Assembly (NCBI GenBank): GCA_937919685.1
Contig: CALFOM010000024.1
Span: 1-36,559, forward strand
Direction: 5' to 3'
DNA: 36,559 nucleotides
Source of the DNA: an uncultured Phycisphaera sp.
Lineage (GTDB): Bacteria; Planctomycetota; Phycisphaerae; Phycisphaerales; SM1A02
Of this stretch, positions 5,723-36,559 are shown one piece after another (the stretch's first letter is position 1; every line of letters begins with the position of its first letter). Made by a program: the position numbers and the translations under genes. The notes below the pieces were generated by a model. That model ran no database searches. It was given only the letters and a program-made list of their open reading frames with translations, and had not been told where the DNA came from.

Positions 5723-7275
5723 GTGTCGGCTCCATTTTTTGCGACCGGTTCTCGGAAGCGGATTGCGGTCCCCGTTTTGATCGAAGGGTCGAGGATGACC
5801 ACATCACCCGGACGCAGGCCGGATCGAATTTCAACCCAGCCGTCGACGCGGACTTCGCCCACCTCCACCGACCTTCGTGCGGCGACCCCTTCGTTTCCGC
5901 TCCGTTCGTCGACGACCAAGATGCCACCTTTCGGATCGACGGCGGATTCGGGCGCGAAGATCCGGCTAATCGTTCGGCGTACTCCGGCTTCGTTCCCGTT
6001 TTTGGAGGGCAGGATCCTGACTCGGGCAAGCATGTCGGGCTTGAGCAGCGGGGAGGGATCGGTGATGTGCACCTTTGCCTCGACGGTGTTCTTCGAGAGG
6101 TCCGCCCGATGGACGAAGCGGGTGATGACTCCCCGAAAGAGGGTGTTGGGAAGAAGGTCTACGACGATCTCCGCGGGTTGCCCCACCCCGACCTTCGCGG
6201 CCTCACCCAGCGGAATATCGGCTCGAACCTGGAGCATCGTGGGATCGTAGAGGTGGACGATATGAGCGCCGTGCTGACCGTTCGCGAATTGAATGGTCGA
6301 TCCAGGTGACGCAATTCGTTCGATGACCACGCCGTCAATCGGCGAGACCACCGTGCATCGATCCAAGGCGAGGGCCGCTACGTCTCGATCTGCGGCCGCC
6401 CTCGCGACTTCGGCCTCCGCGACCAGCAGCCCAGCTTGAGCGGACTCGAGGTCGAGTCGTTCCTTGATGCGGAGTTCGCGGTCGGAGACGGCGGCTCGCC
6501 GTTCCGCTTCCGCCGCTTGCAGCGAAGCCACGACTGCTGCTCGCTCCATCTCCAGTTGCGTGATTTTCGCCTCCAACGATCGGAGTCGAAGTCCCATTCT
6601 GGCCACCGGTCCGGCGGCGACGGCGCCTTCATCGACGAGCCCTCGCTTGCGGTCGTACTCGTCGCGAAGTTCGTCGTGGCTCGACTTTACTTCGTCGATT
6701 CGCGAAGGGAATGCCTTGAGGTCCGCGGCGATCTTCGCTTCGTTTGCTTCCGCGATCGCCACTCGTCGATGTACTGAGACCCGTGTCTCGTAGTCGGCTT
6801 CGGCGGCGGTCAACCTCGCCAGAGCGGCGCTGCGGAGCCCGACTCTTCGATCGACTTCGGTTTCAGCTCGGCGAAGGTTGATCTCGGAATCCGCTCGGAC
6901 CAGCGTCGCAACCGGTTGTCCGATCGTTACGAAATCGCCCTCGAGAACGAGGATCGACTCCACGATTCCCTGGGTGAGTGCAGAAGCATAGATCGAGAAC
7001 GGATCCGCCTCCACCCACCCGGGTGCCTGCACGATTGCGTTGCCCTCGGATTTCGGAGTCGGCGCTTCATCGGTCTCGATGGTTTTGAGCGCGACCGTGA
7101 CCGCGGTCACATCGGTGCGCGGTCGGACCGCATCCCAGCCGACAAAAGCGAGCAACGCCGCGGTCGCGAGCAGAATGAGAATGGGAAGTCCGAGCCTGGA
7201 AAAGATTCGGCGGGGCGGTGTCGGCACCAGGTCGCCGGCCGAGGGTCGAATCGACTCGAATCCTGAATCGGTCAT
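5719..7275 (-). CDS. Periplasmic adaptor (HlyD/MacA/RND membrane-fusion family)
   Basis: Membrane-fusion protein of 518 residues that would bridge the inner-membrane ABC transporter and the TolC-like channel. A Pro-rich cytoplasmic N-terminus is followed by a membrane anchor (LGLPILILLATAALLAFVGW, about 28-47). A split lipoyl domain comes next: VEADPFSIYASALTQGIVESILVLEGDFVTIGQPVATL on one side and CTVVSPIDGVVIERIASPGSTI on the other. Between them lies a long Ala/Glu/Arg-rich coiled-coil hairpin of about 180 residues. A beta-barrel domain (VRADIPLGEAAKVGVGQPAEIVVD) and a membrane-proximal domain follow. It is longer than typical MacA (about 370), mainly in the hairpin. ATGA overlaps join it to TolC upstream and the ATPase downstream. 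I infer export from periplasm to outside; the substrate is unknown. Confidence 0.9.
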   Translation of the reverse strand: MTDSGFESIRPSAGDLVPTPPRRIFSRLGLPILILLATAALLAFVGWDAVRPRTDVTAVTVALKTIETDEAPTPKSEGNAIVQAPGWVEADPFSIYASALTQGIVESILVLEGDFVTIGQPVATLVRADSEINLRRAETEVDRRVGLRSAALARLTAAEADYETRVSVHRRVAIAEANEAKIAADLKAFPSRIDEVKSSHDELRDEYDRKRGLVDEGAVAAGPVARMGLRLRSLEAKITQLEMERAAVVASLQAAEAERRAAVSDRELRIKERLDLESAQAGLLVAEAEVARAAADRDVAALALDRCTVVSPIDGVVIERIASPGSTIQFANGQHGAHIVHLYDPTMLQVRADIPLGEAAKVGVGQPAEIVVDLLPNTLFRGVITRFVHRADLSKNTVEAKVHITDPSPLLKPDMLARVRILPSKNGNEAGVRRTISRIFAPESAVDPKGGILVVDERSGNEGVAARRSVEVGEVRVDGWVEIRSGLRPGDVVILDPSIKTGTAIRFREPVAKNGADT

Positions 7276-30053: not shown

Positions 30054-31565
30054 ATGCAGCAGATACTCATCAATGGTGATTGGACTTTTTCGTCCTCATC
30101 CGCCGACGGATTTCGAGCACTCAATCCATCCACCGGCGAAACTCGGGCACCGATCTTTCCTTTTTCGAACTGGAAGGACCTCGACTCGATGGCCGAGGCG
30201 GCCATGGCCGCGGCGGTCCATCCCGCGAATGCGGAACCGGACCGAATCGGGCATTTTCTCGAGCTCTTTGCCGATCGGCTTGATGCGAATCGAGCAAAGA
30301 TCGCCGAGACGGCGCACGAAGAGACCGCGCTTCCGCTTGAAACCCGACTGGCTCAGATCGAGTTCGGTCGGATGCTCGGCCAACTTCGCGCCGCCGCATC
30401 GGCCGCTCGTGATGTGTCACCGAATTCCTGGCGAACACCATTGATCGATACCGATTCAGGAATTCGAAGTGATTTCGGGCCGCTGGGTGGTGCGGTTCTG
30501 ACGATCGGTCCCAACAATTTTCCGCTCGCGTTTCATGCCGTTTCGGGCGGAGACTTCGCCGCCGCGATCGCGGCGGGTAATCCCGTCATCGCAAAAGGGC
30601 ACCCGCTTCATCCGGAGACCGGGCTCTTGCTGGCACGTTGTGCGGCGGAGGCGGTGACCGAAGCCGGTCTGCACCCCGCGACGGTGCAGTACTTTCATCA
30701 ATGCGATCCGGAAGACGGGCTTCGACTGGTGGTCGATTCGAGAATCGCGGCGGTCGGTTTCACCGGAAGCCGCGCGGCAGGTCTTTCGATCAAGGCCGCC
30801 GCGGATGCATCGGGAACACCGAGCTTTCTGGAAATGTCGAGTGTGAACCCAGTCTTTGTCCTGCCTTCGGCCCTCGCAGAGCGGGGCGCCCAGATCGGCG
30901 GGGAATGGGCGGCGTCGCTCCTCATGGGCGCCGGACAGTTCTGCACGAAGCCGGGAATCGCGGTCATGGTCGGCAAGGGTGGCGATGCATTTCTGGAGGC
31001 AGCGACCTCGGCCCTTCGTGCTGCCGCTCCGGGCGTGCTCTTCTCCGTCGATGGTGTCGAACGCCTCGCCTGCGGAATCGATGCGGTGGAAGCAGCTGGT
31101 GCAGTACTTCGTTGTGGAGGGGCTTCCGGGAGTCCTGGCTCGCGCTTCGAGCCGACCTTGCTCGAAGTGGATGGCGATGACTTCCTGAAGTCGTTCGAAG
31201 ATCTCTCCCAGGAACTCTTTGGCCCCGTGGGTCTGGTGGTTCGTGCGGCAGACCTCAATGAGGCATCGAGTCTCGCCGCTCGATTCGGTGGTCAATTGAC
31301 GGCCACGATGTTCACCGGAAGCGACGATGACGCCGCTTGGATGGCTCTTGAGCCGATCCTGCGCGTGAAATGCGGTCGGCTGATCGAGAACAAGATGCCG
31401 ACCGGCGTCGCGGTGGTCCCGTCGATGGTGCATGGTGGCCCGTATCCTGCGACCGGTCATCCGGGATTCACCGCAGTTGGTCTTCCGACGAGCGTTCGTC
31501 GATTCGCCATGGCTCGCTGTTGGGATGGCGTGGCTTCCGAACGGCTTCCGGCTTGGCTTCAATGA
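30054..31565 (+). CDS. Aldehyde dehydrogenase, alpha-ketoglutarate-semialdehyde (2,5-dioxovalerate) type
   Basis: Cytoplasmic NAD(P)-dependent dehydrogenase of 503 residues. The nucleophile is Cys297 in GAGQFCTKPG, the general-base region is FLEMSSVNPVFV, and the cofactor loop is IGPNNFPLAFHAVSGGDFAAAIAAGNPVIAKGHP. FGPLGGAVLTIGPNNFPLAF and the EMSSVNP motif, in place of the usual ELGGKSP, are the mark of the KGSADH branch that makes 2-oxoglutarate from its semialdehyde. That product is the last step of hydroxyproline and some pentose pathways, and an epimerase plus a DapA-family lyase stand 1-4 kb away on the other strand. The stop overlaps the next start by ATGA. Other semialdehydes remain possible. 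Confidence 0.9.
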   Translation: MQQILINGDWTFSSSSADGFRALNPSTGETRAPIFPFSNWKDLDSMAEAAMAAAVHPANAEPDRIGHFLELFADRLDANRAKIAETAHEETALPLETRLAQIEFGRMLGQLRAAASAARDVSPNSWRTPLIDTDSGIRSDFGPLGGAVLTIGPNNFPLAFHAVSGGDFAAAIAAGNPVIAKGHPLHPETGLLLARCAAEAVTEAGLHPATVQYFHQCDPEDGLRLVVDSRIAAVGFTGSRAAGLSIKAAADASGTPSFLEMSSVNPVFVLPSALAERGAQIGGEWAASLLMGAGQFCTKPGIAVMVGKGGDAFLEAATSALRAAAPGVLFSVDGVERLACGIDAVEAAGAVLRCGGASGSPGSRFEPTLLEVDGDDFLKSFEDLSQELFGPVGLVVRAADLNEASSLAARFGGQLTATMFTGSDDDAAWMALEPILRVKCGRLIENKMPTGVAVVPSMVHGGPYPATGHPGFTAVGLPTSVRRFAMARCWDGVASERLPAWLQ

Positions 31566-32449
31566 GTGAAACGGCGGACAACGCGTCTCTTGCTGGCGTT
31601 CGTATCGGGATTCTGCATCATGCCGGCAGCCGATTGCTTCGCCGCGGCTATCTCATCGAATTGATGGCGGACGAGTGGGCGGCACGTGGGGCCGAAGTCG
31701 TGGACATCGTGGGGATAGAAACGGCGGTTCCGGTCGATGTGCTGCTGCTTCACGTCGACCTTTCGATCGTGCCTGATGAGTACCTTCATTTTGCGAAGTC
31801 CTACTCGAGTGTGATCAATCTGGAGGCGGTGGACATCCGCAAGACGTCCTACCTCGACGACCTCGTCGGTGCGGAGAGCGACTGGGACGGTCCGGTCATC
31901 GTCAAATCCAACTTCAATCACGGCGGCCTCCCAGAGCGGTTGCTCTCGCCTGAAAAAACGCGGCTCGGTGGCCGGTTGGCTGGGGTGCTTCGCCGGATTC
32001 GGCGCCTGATGGGTCTTCCAAACGAGATTCGAGCAAAGGCCGATTACGCGGTGTTTCCAGATCGAGCTTCGATTCCGGCACGAAGATTCCGTGACGGCTC
32101 CATCATCCAACCGTTCCGCTCGGAGCGGTCGGGGAGCGATTTCGTATTGCGTGAGTACTACTTCTTCGGTGGGGTCGAGATCCTGAACAAAGAGATCGGC
32201 CCGGATCCGATCCTGACCAGTGGGCGGCAGGTGGAATGCCGGGCGGAGTCTCCTCCACCCGAAGTCCGGGCGGTTCGAGATCGTCTGAATCTCGACTACG
32301 GCAAGATCGACTACGGCTGCCCGGACGGAGTCACGGTCGTCTATGACGCCAACAAGACACTGGGCATCCGTCAGAACCCGGGGGAGGTGACGACGATGAT
32401 CGCGTCGGCACTGGCGAAGGGAATCGACGGGTGGATCCGTCTGGGATGA
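31562..32449 (+). CDS. Unrecognised protein with ATP-grasp-like features, coupled to the aldehyde dehydrogenase
   Basis: Product of 295 residues. The start codon overlaps the dehydrogenase stop by ATGA, so the two are almost certainly translated together. The N-terminal third looks Rossmann-like (VRIGILHHAGSRLLRRGYLIELMADEWAARGAEVVDI). Lys115 lies in PVIVKSNFNHGGLPE, which resembles the nucleotide-binding lysine and glycine loop of ATP-grasp enzymes. LNLDYGKIDYGCPDGVTVVYDANKTLG near 255-280 resembles the acidic metal-binding strand (D-x-N type). These features together suggest an ATP-dependent ligase or a relative, but the match is by eye and the family is unnamed to me. No signal peptide is seen. 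The partner dehydrogenase suggests a shared substrate or product. Confidence 0.7.
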   Translation: MSETADNASLAGVRIGILHHAGSRLLRRGYLIELMADEWAARGAEVVDIVGIETAVPVDVLLLHVDLSIVPDEYLHFAKSYSSVINLEAVDIRKTSYLDDLVGAESDWDGPVIVKSNFNHGGLPERLLSPEKTRLGGRLAGVLRRIRRLMGLPNEIRAKADYAVFPDRASIPARRFRDGSIIQPFRSERSGSDFVLREYYFFGGVEILNKEIGPDPILTSGRQVECRAESPPPEVRAVRDRLNLDYGKIDYGCPDGVTVVYDANKTLGIRQNPGEVTTMIASALAKGIDGWIRLG

Positions 32450-32478: not shown

Positions 32479-33390
32479 TTACTTCGATCGGGTCCGTTTC
32501 GCTTCAGCGATCATCGCCAATGCGTGTTCGCGAACGGGACCTTCAAGCGGTCGGCGAGGGCCTCGAACAAGTTCGTCGCCCATGTCAAACTCGGCTTGCA
32601 CCAGGTTGACCAGATGAACGAATTCGGGGACGGCATCGAGCCGCAGGAGAGGCAGAAACCACTGATAGAGCGCTTCGAGCTCATCACGGTCGCCAGTGGA
32701 CCGAGCGTGGAGCGCGAGTTCCCAGAGGCGGATGGATTCTTCGGGGAGCGCATTCACCAGCCCGGCGATCCAACCGTCGGCGCCGGCTTCGGCGCCTTCG
32801 ACCGCCATGTCGTCGATTCCCACGAAGATCGCTAGGCGTGTGCCGAGCGTGCCCCGGATCTCGCGGAACCTCCGAATATCGCCGCTCGACTCCTTGGTCG
32901 CATGGAGATTGGAATGATCGGCGGCGAGTTCCGCGAGTTCGTGAGGCCGAACGTCCACTCGGTACGCGATGGGGTTGTTGTAGAGCATGCAAGAGAGACC
33001 GGTCGCCTCGAACACCGTCGCGAAGTGCGTTTTTGTCTCGGTCCAGGGGCCGGCGTACGCGTATGCCGGGAGCACCATCAGCCCTCGGCATCCACATCGC
33101 TCCGCCTGCTGGGCGATGTCAACCGACTGGCTGGTAGAGATGGCGCTCACCGCGGCGACGATCGGGATGCGGTTCCCGACCGCTTCCACGCAGGTGTTCC
33201 AGACGGCGGACTTCTCTTCCATCGACAACGCGCCGCCTTCGCCGAGCGAGCCAGGCGTGACGATCGCGGAACTACCAGCGTCGGCCATCCGCACCACATG
33301 CGCGGCAAGTCGATCGTGGTCGATGGTGAGGTCAGGGTGGTAAGGATTGGTGATGGCCGGCATCACGCCCTGCCAAGTGGAGCGGTTCAT
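32479..33390 (-). CDS. DapA-family lyase/aldolase, likely pyrroline-4-hydroxy-2-carboxylate deaminase
   Basis: Cytoplasmic TIM-barrel enzyme of 303 residues, typical of the dihydrodipicolinate synthase/N-acetylneuraminate lyase family. The Schiff-base lysine is Lys166 in LHATKESSGD and the partner tyrosine is Tyr137 in CMLYNNPIAYRVD. The phosphate-loop equivalent is GSLGEGGALSMEEK. The neighbouring 4-hydroxyproline epimerase and KGSADH-like dehydrogenase make conversion of pyrroline-4-hydroxy-2-carboxylate to 2-oxoglutarate semialdehyde and ammonia the best guess. The ATG at 33390 has GAGG ten bases upstream. It lies 74 bases after the epimerase on the same strand, so co-transcription is likely. 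A different 2-keto acid substrate is possible. Confidence 0.88.
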   Translation of the reverse strand: MNRSTWQGVMPAITNPYHPDLTIDHDRLAAHVVRMADAGSSAIVTPGSLGEGGALSMEEKSAVWNTCVEAVGNRIPIVAAVSAISTSQSVDIAQQAERCGCRGLMVLPAYAYAGPWTETKTHFATVFEATGLSCMLYNNPIAYRVDVRPHELAELAADHSNLHATKESSGDIRRFREIRGTLGTRLAIFVGIDDMAVEGAEAGADGWIAGLVNALPEESIRLWELALHARSTGDRDELEALYQWFLPLLRLDAVPEFVHLVNLVQAEFDMGDELVRGPRRPLEGPVREHALAMIAEAKRTRSK

Positions 33391-33464: not shown

Positions 33465-34412
33465 TCAGAAGATCCCGAACCGATACGGGTCTTCAGGATC
33501 AAGGTAGAGCGTCGATTCCCCGGTAATCCACGCCCGGCCTGAGATGGTGGGAATAATTACTCCGGGTTCGGAACTCGCGCGCCAGGAACCGCTGAAGCGA
33601 GAGCCGATGATCGACTCCTGGATCCACGTCGCACCCTCTGCGAGCTTTCCGTCGGCGGCAAGGCACGCCAGTTTCGCACTGGTGCCCGTTCCGCAAGGCG
33701 AGCGGTCGTAGGCGCCACCCGGACAGAGCACGAAATTCCGCCCGTCGCCACCGTCTTTGGAAGGACCGAAGAGTTCGACGTGATCGATCGGCCCGCCGTG
33801 TGCACCGGCGCCGTCCAATCCTTCTGCGTTCATGACTCGACGGATGTTCGAGGCCAGTTCAGTGAGTTCCTTGCGACGATCGAACTCGACGGTCTCGCCG
33901 TGATCGTCGATCAACGCAAACCAATTGCCACCCCATGCGATATCCGCATGAACCAGCCGGTCATCGAGTTGCACGGGCACTCGGTGGCTCGTTCGGCGTG
34001 ATGCCACGTTCTCCACGGCGATGATTCCGTCCGGGCCGATGCGCGCGGTCACCGGGCCGACCGGGGTGTCGAGTCGAATGGTCTCGCCCGGCGTGGTCGA
34101 GGCTTGGCCGAGGTGTTGCAGGGTTCGGACCACACCAATCGTTCCGTGGACGCACATCCCGAGGGCGCCGGAATTGTTGACGAAGATGACCCCGGCGTCC
34201 GAGGCGGGTGATTCCGGCGGACGGAGAATCGCGCCCACCAAGGCCTCGGACCCGCGAGGTTCTCGCACGATGGCGGTTCGGATGTGATCGAATTCGGTGG
34301 TGAATCGACTCGCCTGCCGGGAAAGCGATCCGCCGCCAAGGTCCGGCCCGCCCCCCACGATTACTCGGGTGGGTTCACCTTCGGTATGGCTATCGATCAC
34401 CTTGATGGACAT
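33465..34412 (-). CDS. 4-hydroxyproline epimerase (proline racemase family)
   Basis: Interconverts trans-4-hydroxy-L-proline and cis-4-hydroxy-D-proline without cofactor, using two cysteines. The product is 315 residues, normal for the family. Cys87 (SGALGMCVHGTIG) and Cys240 (DRSPCGTGTSAK) are both present, so this should be an epimerase rather than a family dehydratase, where the first Cys is replaced. The first motif has Val where most relatives have Gly (MCVHG, not MCGHG). The start at 34412 (MSIKVIDSHTEGEPTRVIVGG) matches the family N-terminus; the track start is a TTG inside the exosortase gene. No clear Shine-Dalgarno is visible. Spacing is 85 bases from the exosortase stop and 74 to the lyase, suggesting an operon with the lyase. 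Confidence 0.92.
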   Translation of the reverse strand: MSIKVIDSHTEGEPTRVIVGGGPDLGGGSLSRQASRFTTEFDHIRTAIVREPRGSEALVGAILRPPESPASDAGVIFVNNSGALGMCVHGTIGVVRTLQHLGQASTTPGETIRLDTPVGPVTARIGPDGIIAVENVASRRTSHRVPVQLDDRLVHADIAWGGNWFALIDDHGETVEFDRRKELTELASNIRRVMNAEGLDGAGAHGGPIDHVELFGPSKDGGDGRNFVLCPGGAYDRSPCGTGTSAKLACLAADGKLAEGATWIQESIIGSRFSGSWRASSEPGVIIPTISGRAWITGESTLYLDPEDPYRFGIF

Positions 34413-34497
34413 GCCGCGGAAGGTAACCGAGACGGGATTCTTCGGTATGCCCGCAAGCCGGAGTCGCCTCGGGAGCGTGCGGCATCGAGAGCCCGGG

Positions 34498-36342
34498 TCA
34501 GGGGCCTTCAAAGTCGCGCCAGTCCGGGAGGATCTTGGCGAGTTCAGGGAGCAGCGCGGTGATGAAATCGGTCACCTGTGCTTCGAAGAGGGCGAGTATC
34601 TCATCGTCGTCCGACGCGCCTCTGGACGTGTACGTCGAGTTCAGCTGGATCTTGCAGTAGTAGGCGTACTCGGAGGTGAGGTCGAAGGCGACATTCTCGA
34701 CCGCCATGGCGCTGTCCGTGGTTCTGCCGTTGGCGACGAAGAAATATGCGCCCAGATTCCGCTGCGATGGATTTTCGGGATCCGTGAAGATCGTCGTACG
34801 GAGGGAGATCTCACCAATCGGAAGAGGGAGCTCGCTGGTAACGCCGGTGACCGGATCTGTGACGGAGATCACCTGATAGGGAAGGCCCGTCGCCCGGTTG
34901 AGGGTATCAGTGGCGGTGCCCAGATCGGGAAGGTCAAGATCGATGTTGAATGGACTGCGAACGGAGAGAAGTCCGCTCTTGGCCCAGCAGATCTCGGGAA
35001 CGTGCGGTGCAGTACCGGCAAGATCCGTGTAATACGCGAGATGAAGCTGAAGAAACCCCGGGACGTCCTCGGCGGTCGGAACGTAGTTTCGCTGGAGATA
35101 CTGATTCGTGCCGAGGACTTCGATGATCGTATCTCGGAAGACCTCATCCTCGCCGGATCTCTTCCAGCCGCCGATGGTGGTCGGCACGCTGGCGATCGCT
35201 TCCCGGGGTTGAACCTGCTTTTTCACGAGATGAAGGCCAAGCGCATCAACCGTGGTATTGATGGCGATTCCGCCCGTGAAGAGCAGCACGGCGGTGGCAA
35301 TGCAGATCGGAATCGCGGATCTAGGGAATCGAGGCGATGCCGCCTTCCGGGTCTCGGCGCTTCCGGCGCCTCGCCGAAGTCGATGTCCATCTTCGTCTTC
35401 GTCAAGTGGCTGGAGAAACCACATCAGAAGCATGAAGAGTCCGAAGGTGGGGATCATCCAGATGAGTCCCACCAGCGAATGGAATTCGCCGAACATGAAT
35501 TCCTCGCCGTTCATGCCGAGGATTCCAAGGGTGCAGATTCGGAGGACGTTGATGAAAATCGCGATCGGAAGTCCGGTGGTGATCAGGAGGAGGCGGAGCC
35601 ACCAGCGATCGAGACCGACGTAGGCGATGACGGTGCCAAGCGCGAGGAACGCCATGAGCATTCGCATGCCCGAGCAGGCTTCCGCCACATCTAGCGGATA
35701 CGTGTTGCCACCCGGGAGAAGAATCTCGATGTAGTTCCCCCGGAGCGGCAGCAGGTCATAGCCGATCAGGTCAAGCGCCTGCCAGGATCCCCATGCGGCC
35801 ATCGATTGCAACGGAAGGGTGATCTCGAGGAGCACCTTGTCGGTGATCCGCTGGCCGAAGACGAAGATATAAAGCAGCGGGAACCAGAGCCAGACAAGCG
35901 CTCGCCAACCGAGAATCGCGATGCAGCCGCCACTCAGCCCGAAGAAGACGCCGACCGCCCGCATGTTGTGGCTGTTAAGGAACGTCGACTCCGGTGCGAG
36001 CCAGGTCGCGGCGTACCAGAGGATGCCCAAGCCGATCAGGGCCAGTCCGCTCCAGGTGGATTGGAAGGGTCGAGCAAAGAGATCCGCCTTGTGCAGGAAG
36101 ACCACGTACAAGGCGATCAACGGAATGAAAAGCGTATGTCCCCAGTCCGCGGAATCGGTCGTGGCATAGTGGTACTGGAGAAGGAAGAAGTCGCGGAAGG
36201 CGAAGAAGAGCGCCCCGAGGATCGCCGCGCCGATGACCAGTGCCACGACGGGCGAGGGCACGAGGCACGCGGCCTCCTCGGAGGTCGGATCGATCTCGGT
36301 GGCTGGCGAATCGGTGTTTTTTTGAGTGTCTGAATTGACCAT
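34498..36342 (-). CDS. Exosortase fused to EpsI-like domain
   Basis: Inner-membrane cysteine transpeptidase of 614 residues, expected to cleave and anchor PEP-CTERM-type surface proteins. After a polar N-terminus (MVNSDTQKNTDSPATEIDPTSEE) come about eight to ten transmembrane helices. The three catalytic residues are in place: Cys223 in VAEACSGMRML, Arg268 in INVLRICTLG and His288 in GEFHSLVG. After a basic linker (HRLRRGAGSAETRK) a further helix leads into a soluble EpsI/DUF3485-like domain (about 350-614) with VPTTIGGWKRSGEDEVF and APHVPEICWAKSGL. Fusion of exosortase and EpsI in one chain is a known arrangement. The start is uncertain: ATG at 36342 suits the topology but has no purine-rich site. 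No PEP-CTERM substrate is in the window. Confidence 0.9.
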   Translation of the reverse strand: MVNSDTQKNTDSPATEIDPTSEEAACLVPSPVVALVIGAAILGALFFAFRDFFLLQYHYATTDSADWGHTLFIPLIALYVVFLHKADLFARPFQSTWSGLALIGLGILWYAATWLAPESTFLNSHNMRAVGVFFGLSGGCIAILGWRALVWLWFPLLYIFVFGQRITDKVLLEITLPLQSMAAWGSWQALDLIGYDLLPLRGNYIEILLPGGNTYPLDVAEACSGMRMLMAFLALGTVIAYVGLDRWWLRLLLITTGLPIAIFINVLRICTLGILGMNGEEFMFGEFHSLVGLIWMIPTFGLFMLLMWFLQPLDEDEDGHRLRRGAGSAETRKAASPRFPRSAIPICIATAVLLFTGGIAINTTVDALGLHLVKKQVQPREAIASVPTTIGGWKRSGEDEVFRDTIIEVLGTNQYLQRNYVPTAEDVPGFLQLHLAYYTDLAGTAPHVPEICWAKSGLLSVRSPFNIDLDLPDLGTATDTLNRATGLPYQVISVTDPVTGVTSELPLPIGEISLRTTIFTDPENPSQRNLGAYFFVANGRTTDSAMAVENVAFDLTSEYAYYCKIQLNSTYTSRGASDDDEILALFEAQVTDFITALLPELAKILPDWRDFEGP

Positions 36343-36559
36343 GGGGGGAATCGGATCGCCTGAGTACCGTGCCGGATAATCTCTACGTGACACGTATTGA
36401 CCGAAGTTGAACTGCCATTCGCACCGCTTGGCTATTGATGATCGTCCTTCTCGGGCGTTGATCCAGCGAGAACGTTTGATTTCTAGGCCATCTGAAGGTC
36501 GCCGCGACCGGTATGGTCCGAAAACCAACGGCATCGTATCCAAGGGCGTGCGTCATCGA
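36343..36559. other. Upstream region of the exosortase, right window edge
   Basis: About 217 bases with no supported gene; the exosortase frame stays open to 36543, but the extra 67 residues are basic, non-membrane and unlike an exosortase N-terminus. It presumably holds the exosortase promoter and leader. No clear -35/-10 pair or hairpin is seen. Confidence 0.4.

Follow-up and report, generated by a model that had tools for sequence, protein, structure and literature searches.

We found that an open reading frame wedged between the dehydrogenase and deaminase genes of a probable hydroxyproline catabolic cluster encodes a protein, hereafter Q, that has an ATP-grasp fold according to its structural models. 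With moderate confidence, we read Q as an enzyme of an uncharacterised and sparse planctomycete family of the ATP-grasp superfamily, most likely a ligase, and as an accessory, recombining protein that is not needed for hydroxyproline breakdown. The window in which it lies is the entire contig C24 (36,559 nt) of G000, an uncultured Phycisphaera sp. genome (3.45 Mb, 254 contigs) in which Q is single copy.

We infer that Q is catalytic and that its chemistry is that of a ligase. K94 and K115 would bind Mg-ATP in the space separating the lobes, the metals would sit on D250, D262 and N264, and R197 and K248 would hold phosphates. Q would then phosphorylate the carboxylate of a first substrate, and the amine or hydroxyl of a second substrate would attack the acyl phosphate. 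At the gene level, Q would have entered the cluster, in this genus, at the point where the dehydrogenase and deaminase genes converge. There it would be translated with the dehydrogenase, and homologous recombination via the flanking genes could bring it in, exchange it or remove it.

The hydroxyproline cluster around Q

The usual gene set for trans-4-hydroxyproline catabolism comprises an epimerase, an oxidase of the DAAO superfamily, a deaminase of the DHDPS family and a 2-oxoglutarate semialdehyde dehydrogenase (PMC4113996), and the dehydrogenase, deaminase and epimerase homologues around Q make up most of it (Table 1). The best models for the racemase-family gene are 4-hydroxyproline epimerases, all below cutoff; its start was set at an internal ATG, and the longer ORF extends to 34511. 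The dehydrogenase also falls under the NCBIfam cutoff for all 25 models among the matches listed. Its assignment as KGSADH-like, made in the initial annotation, is plausible since it is clustered with epimerase and deaminase homologues and resembles the 3v4c/1eyy type most. No oxidase gene lies within the hydroxyproline block of the window. Another contig of the same genome, C104, encodes a D-amino-acid-dehydrogenase-like protein (L073, G000:C104:4007-5185; 227 bits, below cutoff), which might supply the D-hydroxyproline oxidase activity that the block lacks.

Wherever contigs reach, the common block reads sulfatase, AKR, nucleotidyltransferase, LOG, dehydrogenase, Q, deaminase, epimerase and exosortase. 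The exosortase gene of the window (34498-36543, minus strand) encodes an EpsH domain with a C-terminal DUF3485, and its best NCBIfam models, XrtD and XrtW, are far under cutoff. In four genomes, G084, G100, G120 and G129, the deaminase gene has a short palindrome (e.g. TGACCCCGGGGGTCA) at its 3' end (L088 near 7000-7016; the equivalent place in L106, L014, L016). This element, which is not obvious in the window, might act as a terminator of the two converging transcripts.

Table 1. Features of the window that bear on Q, with coordinates on the 36,559-nt contig
Feature	Coordinates	Strand	Evidence
Aldehyde dehydrogenase, KGSADH-like	30054..31565	+	PF00171 2.9e-43; nearest solved structures 3v4c, 1eyy; GQFCT and LEMSS motifs
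ATGA start/stop overlap of Q with dehydrogenase	31562..31565	+	Five species retain an NTGA overlap of 4 nt
Q, predicted ATP-grasp-fold protein, 295 aa	31562..32449	+	ORF, AlphaFold, Foldseek, conserved catalytic positions
K94 codon, linker lysine before lid domain	31841..31843	+	Invariant, 18/18; template PMC4431377
VIVKSNFNHGG, lid strand: K115, then N119 and G122	31895..31927	+	All three invariant
Arg-rich helical insertion, lid loop, about residues 123-160	31928..32041	+	AlphaFold models and alignment
R197 codon, first strand of kinase-like lobe	32150..32152	+	Arg in 16/18
DYGKIDYG...DANKTLG: K248, D250, D262, N264, predicted metal/ATP residues	32294..32365	+	Alignment; Asp1 spacing; DdlB alignment
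DHDPS-family protein, probable deaminase of hydroxyproline pathway	32479..33390	-	PF00701 8.9e-44; context
Proline racemase family, 4-hydroxyproline epimerase homologue	33465..34418	-	NF052296 E 1.3e-107, 359.8 bits, cutoff 450 not reached

Reading frame, overlap and selection

Q is a real gene under purifying selection. Its reading frame, with an ATG start in the ORF listing of the window, and its overlap with the dehydrogenase, whose TGA stop sits inside the shared ATGA, are present as first described, and the two peptides that had been singled out, VIVKSNFNHGG and DYGKIDYG...DANKTLG, correspond to residues 112-122 and 245-268. The frame is retained in G033, G062, G120 and G111 at 49-72% protein identity. 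The dN/dS of Q is 0.12-0.34, compared with about 0.08-0.21 for the dehydrogenase, values that are rough given that synonymous sites are near saturation.

A lone ATGA overlap is common among bacteria and by itself proves little. However, the 4-nt overlap is retained in all five species with a readable Q start despite a changing start codon (ATGA in G000, TTGA in G033 and G120, GTGA in G111 and G062), which is stronger evidence than any single overlap. This retention suggests that coupling Q to the dehydrogenase is worth something, and the tight coupling first proposed from the window holds across these species; the two genes are probably coupled in translation. In G129 (L016:6441-7333), Q is broken across two reading frames near residue 54, by either a true frameshift or an assembly error.

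Predicted fold and catalytic residues

AlphaFold models of Q reached a pLDDT of 86.0 and a pTM of 0.84 with nine relatives in the alignment, and 89.6 and 0.87 with fourteen. For both models, the top 50 Foldseek matches in the PDB are exclusively ATP-grasp proteins, including PPIP5K2, LysX/ArgX, ITPK1, RimK, Ddl, DcsG and AMdnB (best E values 1.9e-7 and 3.2e-8), and the matches in a viral structure library are likewise ATP-grasp. The predicted structure comprises the two-lobe ATP-grasp fold and a pre-ATP-grasp domain. TM-scores are about 0.5 with large rmsd, so that the fold is fixed while the subfamily is not settled, and inositol-phosphate kinases place as high as ligases. The initial annotation had guessed an ATP-grasp fold and proposed structure prediction and a fold search as the check; the two models, their uniform matches and the conserved catalytic positions described below all bear the guess out, and no unrelated fold emerged. 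It had also called the fold shortened or divergent. Divergent it is, but not shortened, as the lid loop carries an insertion.

Sequence searches gave no family assignment: Q has no match in Pfam, NCBIfam or PDB sequence searches, none of eight relatives scores above a Pfam cutoff, and searching PDB sequences with the relatives or with a profile gave no match. Profile comparisons of Q with E. coli RimK and GshB were not significant, and NfsA, a control from outside the ATP-grasp superfamily, scored like GshB.

Residues of Q were compared with the superfamily template of catalytic positions (PMC4431377), and conservation was counted over Q and 17 relatives (17 sequences for D250, D262 and N264). 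K94 is the lysine of the linker that leads into the lid domain, and K115 is the one that closes lid strand 2; both are kept in 18/18 sequences. In the kinase-like lobe, the acid of strand 4 (residues 246-252) is D250, an Asp in 16 of the 17 sequences and a Glu in one, and the acid-x-Asn motif of strand 5 is D262-x-N264 in 17/17. Q thus carries DxN in place of ExN, a form accepted for CDC123 (PMC4431377). Strand 1 of the same lobe (residues 193-202) supplies R197, and an arginine on this strand is typical of most peptide/amide ligases (PMC4431377). The lid loop departs from the template, in which it is glycine-rich (ssxGbGl) and spans about 9 residues: Q lacks the GxG and has instead TDxNxGGxPE followed by an Arg-rich helical insertion of ~40 residues, where, the N-terminus aside, model confidence is lowest. 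This loop is not strictly defining, because the R2K clade also lacks the motif and is still counted as ATP-grasp (PMC4431377).

Q could instead be an ATP-grasp phosphotransferase that acts on a small polyol, a phosphate ester or a protein with chemistry like that of ITPK/PPIP5K, its Arg-rich insertion binding the anionic substrate. ITPK1 and PPIP5K2 are among the best Foldseek matches of both models, and the invariant Asp of the DxN motif is shared with Asp1 (D333-x-N335) at a position where E. coli RimK, DdlB and GshB have Glu. However, CDC123 has DxN yet is no known kinase, R197 is of the ligase-clade type, and Q has no sequence similarity to kinases, neither Q nor its relatives giving a Pfam match to the ITPK/PPIP5K profiles. 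Moreover, PF05770 was not detected in 199 planctomycete genomes, the window's included, although the control genomes gave no match either. We consider a phosphotransferase unlikely and favour a ligase.

Distribution of Q and its relatives

Q is found in 7/8 genomes of the genus, in two of these seven as a partial gene, and its position is identical in every one of them with enough flanking sequence. Among the sampled genomes of the family's other genera it was not found, and in several of these the three pathway genes lie near one another; in G013, for example, the dehydrogenase and deaminase genes are convergent and a few bp apart. The pairing, whose conservation the initial annotation proposed to check, therefore extends beyond a single genome, but it is confined to one genus and is not universal even there, as G100 and one haplotype of G084 have the hydroxyproline cluster without Q.

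In profile searches, 8/397 genomes of the class gave Q relatives at E 1e-8. Across the phylum, 10/392 genomes did so at E 0.001, a set that includes some weak matches to the ExNTNP family described below. Some genomes carry two or three copies of the Q family. The eight distant loci of the class have no gene neighbour in common, and none of the distant loci read for context, two of them in part, adjoins an aldehyde dehydrogenase. Viral contigs, phages and plasmids yielded no Q relative, and thus no sign of phage or plasmid carriage, and a literature search returned no relevant work joining ATP-grasp, hydroxyproline and semialdehyde dehydrogenase.

These patterns bear on whether Q works as a dedicated partner in hydroxyproline breakdown, joining an amine to a carboxylate from the pathway (2-oxoglutarate, hydroxyproline or a derivative). 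The conserved overlap with the dehydrogenase and the constant position of Q within the genus are what such a partner would show. However, other genera and two lineages of this genus have the cluster but no Q, the Q relatives at the distant loci read for context are not beside such genes, and Q evolves faster than the dehydrogenase and separately from it. A dedicated pathway ligase is therefore quite improbable, and the original suggestion that the enzyme joins the carboxylate product of the dehydrogenase to an amine finds no support in the comparison.

Probable gain, loss and exchange at the junction

The junction between the dehydrogenase and deaminase genes appears to be dynamic. G100 has an intact site without Q. 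In the G084 bin, the site is empty on contig C39, and contig C90 carries the end of Q (loci of the two haplotypes: L018:7837-8129 and L088:6990-7163). The deaminase-epimerase-exosortase stretches of C39 and C90 are 99.2% identical, and over the empty site C39 matches G100 without a difference for 170 nt, against ~89% identity around it. The Q fragment of C90 is identical to G111, of the other clade, at 103/105 nt, and the C90 deaminase is close to that of C39 and then diverges near its 3' end. C90 is either a recombinant or a chimeric contig, and a chimera comes into question for G084 alone, because G084 is a metagenome bin and its piece of Q lies at a contig end. In the Q tree, the proteins of the genus group together (100/99), and G062 branches apart from all the others, in neither of the two clades (97/99). 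The G062 dehydrogenase is 83-85% identical to those of the window, G033, G084 and G100 (85% to the window's) and ~66% to the other clade. Taken together, the empty sites, identical tracts and tree discordance suggest that Q was gained at the junction and that homologous recombination in its neighbours is exchanging or removing it.

Q might also be an ATP-grasp protein that is inactive as an enzyme or has a regulatory role, or its gene might be on the way to loss. This reading would fit the faster evolution of Q relative to its neighbours, its absence from some lineages and the frame break of G129, but it is very unlikely, as the catalytic positions are invariant in very distant relatives, dN/dS is well below 1 and the break may be an assembly error.

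Implications

As a probable accessory ATP-grasp ligase, Q hints at a new enzyme family and not at a new step of the hydroxyproline pathway. With Q, the ATP-grasp superfamily gains a family that went unrecognised by the libraries searched here and has its own residue signature and lid insertion. It could go further: Q might represent a new clade (K94, K115-x3-N-x2-G, Arg-rich lid insertion, YGKxD...DxN), a single mobile accessory gene in planctomycetes whose reaction, phosphotransfer or protein/peptide modification, has no known precedent among bacterial members of the superfamily, an idea that we put forward as speculation with little expectation. The junction also carries a caution for annotation. 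A tight start/stop overlap is a poor guide to function, since the partner pathway occurs without Q, and the apparent gain, swapping and loss of Q by recombination at this site adds to that caution.

Comparison with known ATP-grasp systems

LysX/ArgX and RimK are ATP-grasp amino-acid/glutamate ligases. Their overall fold is like that of Q, and the strand-4 Asp and the acid-x-Asn motif align. In contrast, Q has Asp for the Glu of ExN, an Arg-rich insertion and no GxG lid loop, and sequence similarity is not usable (hhalign against RimK was not significant).

Ddl is the best among the weak profile matches to Q (E 0.003 for a single comparison, probability 10%), and the two have in common G-[K/R]-x-D followed by acid-x-N-x-[ST]-x-[G]. 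This motif aligns with R255/D257/E270/N272 of DdlB, in which R255-x-D257 resembles K248-x-D250 of Q. The motif alone aligns, however; Ddl has the Glu of ExN, and the lid and substrate region differ. At this motif, E. coli RimK, DdlB and GshB carry MEVN, LEAN and TEIN, with Glu where Q has Asp.

The ITPK/PPIP5K inositol phosphate kinases also have a fold like that of Q. Asp1, an inositol pyrophosphate kinase with D321, D333 and N335, shows the same 12-residue spacing and the same Asp in DxN (PMC9765450). Q differs from these kinases in its ligase-type Arg and in sequence, where there is no similarity.

The R2K clade, made up of CDC123 and its bacterial relatives, resembles Q in the DxN motif (in CDC123), the missing GxG loop motif and a variable lid loop. 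R2K proteins lack the linker lysine and have a second Lys/Arg in the lid loop, whereas Q keeps K94 throughout, which places it outside this clade.

A second ATP-grasp-like family of planctomycetes (L043:3432-4418, L044:3886-4653 and L045:2427-3296) is distantly related to Q. Its members differ from Q in having Glu in ExN and Arg for Lys, and they give weak profile matches; their GRxDY...ExNTNP motif is close to the GKxDY...DxNxTP of Q.
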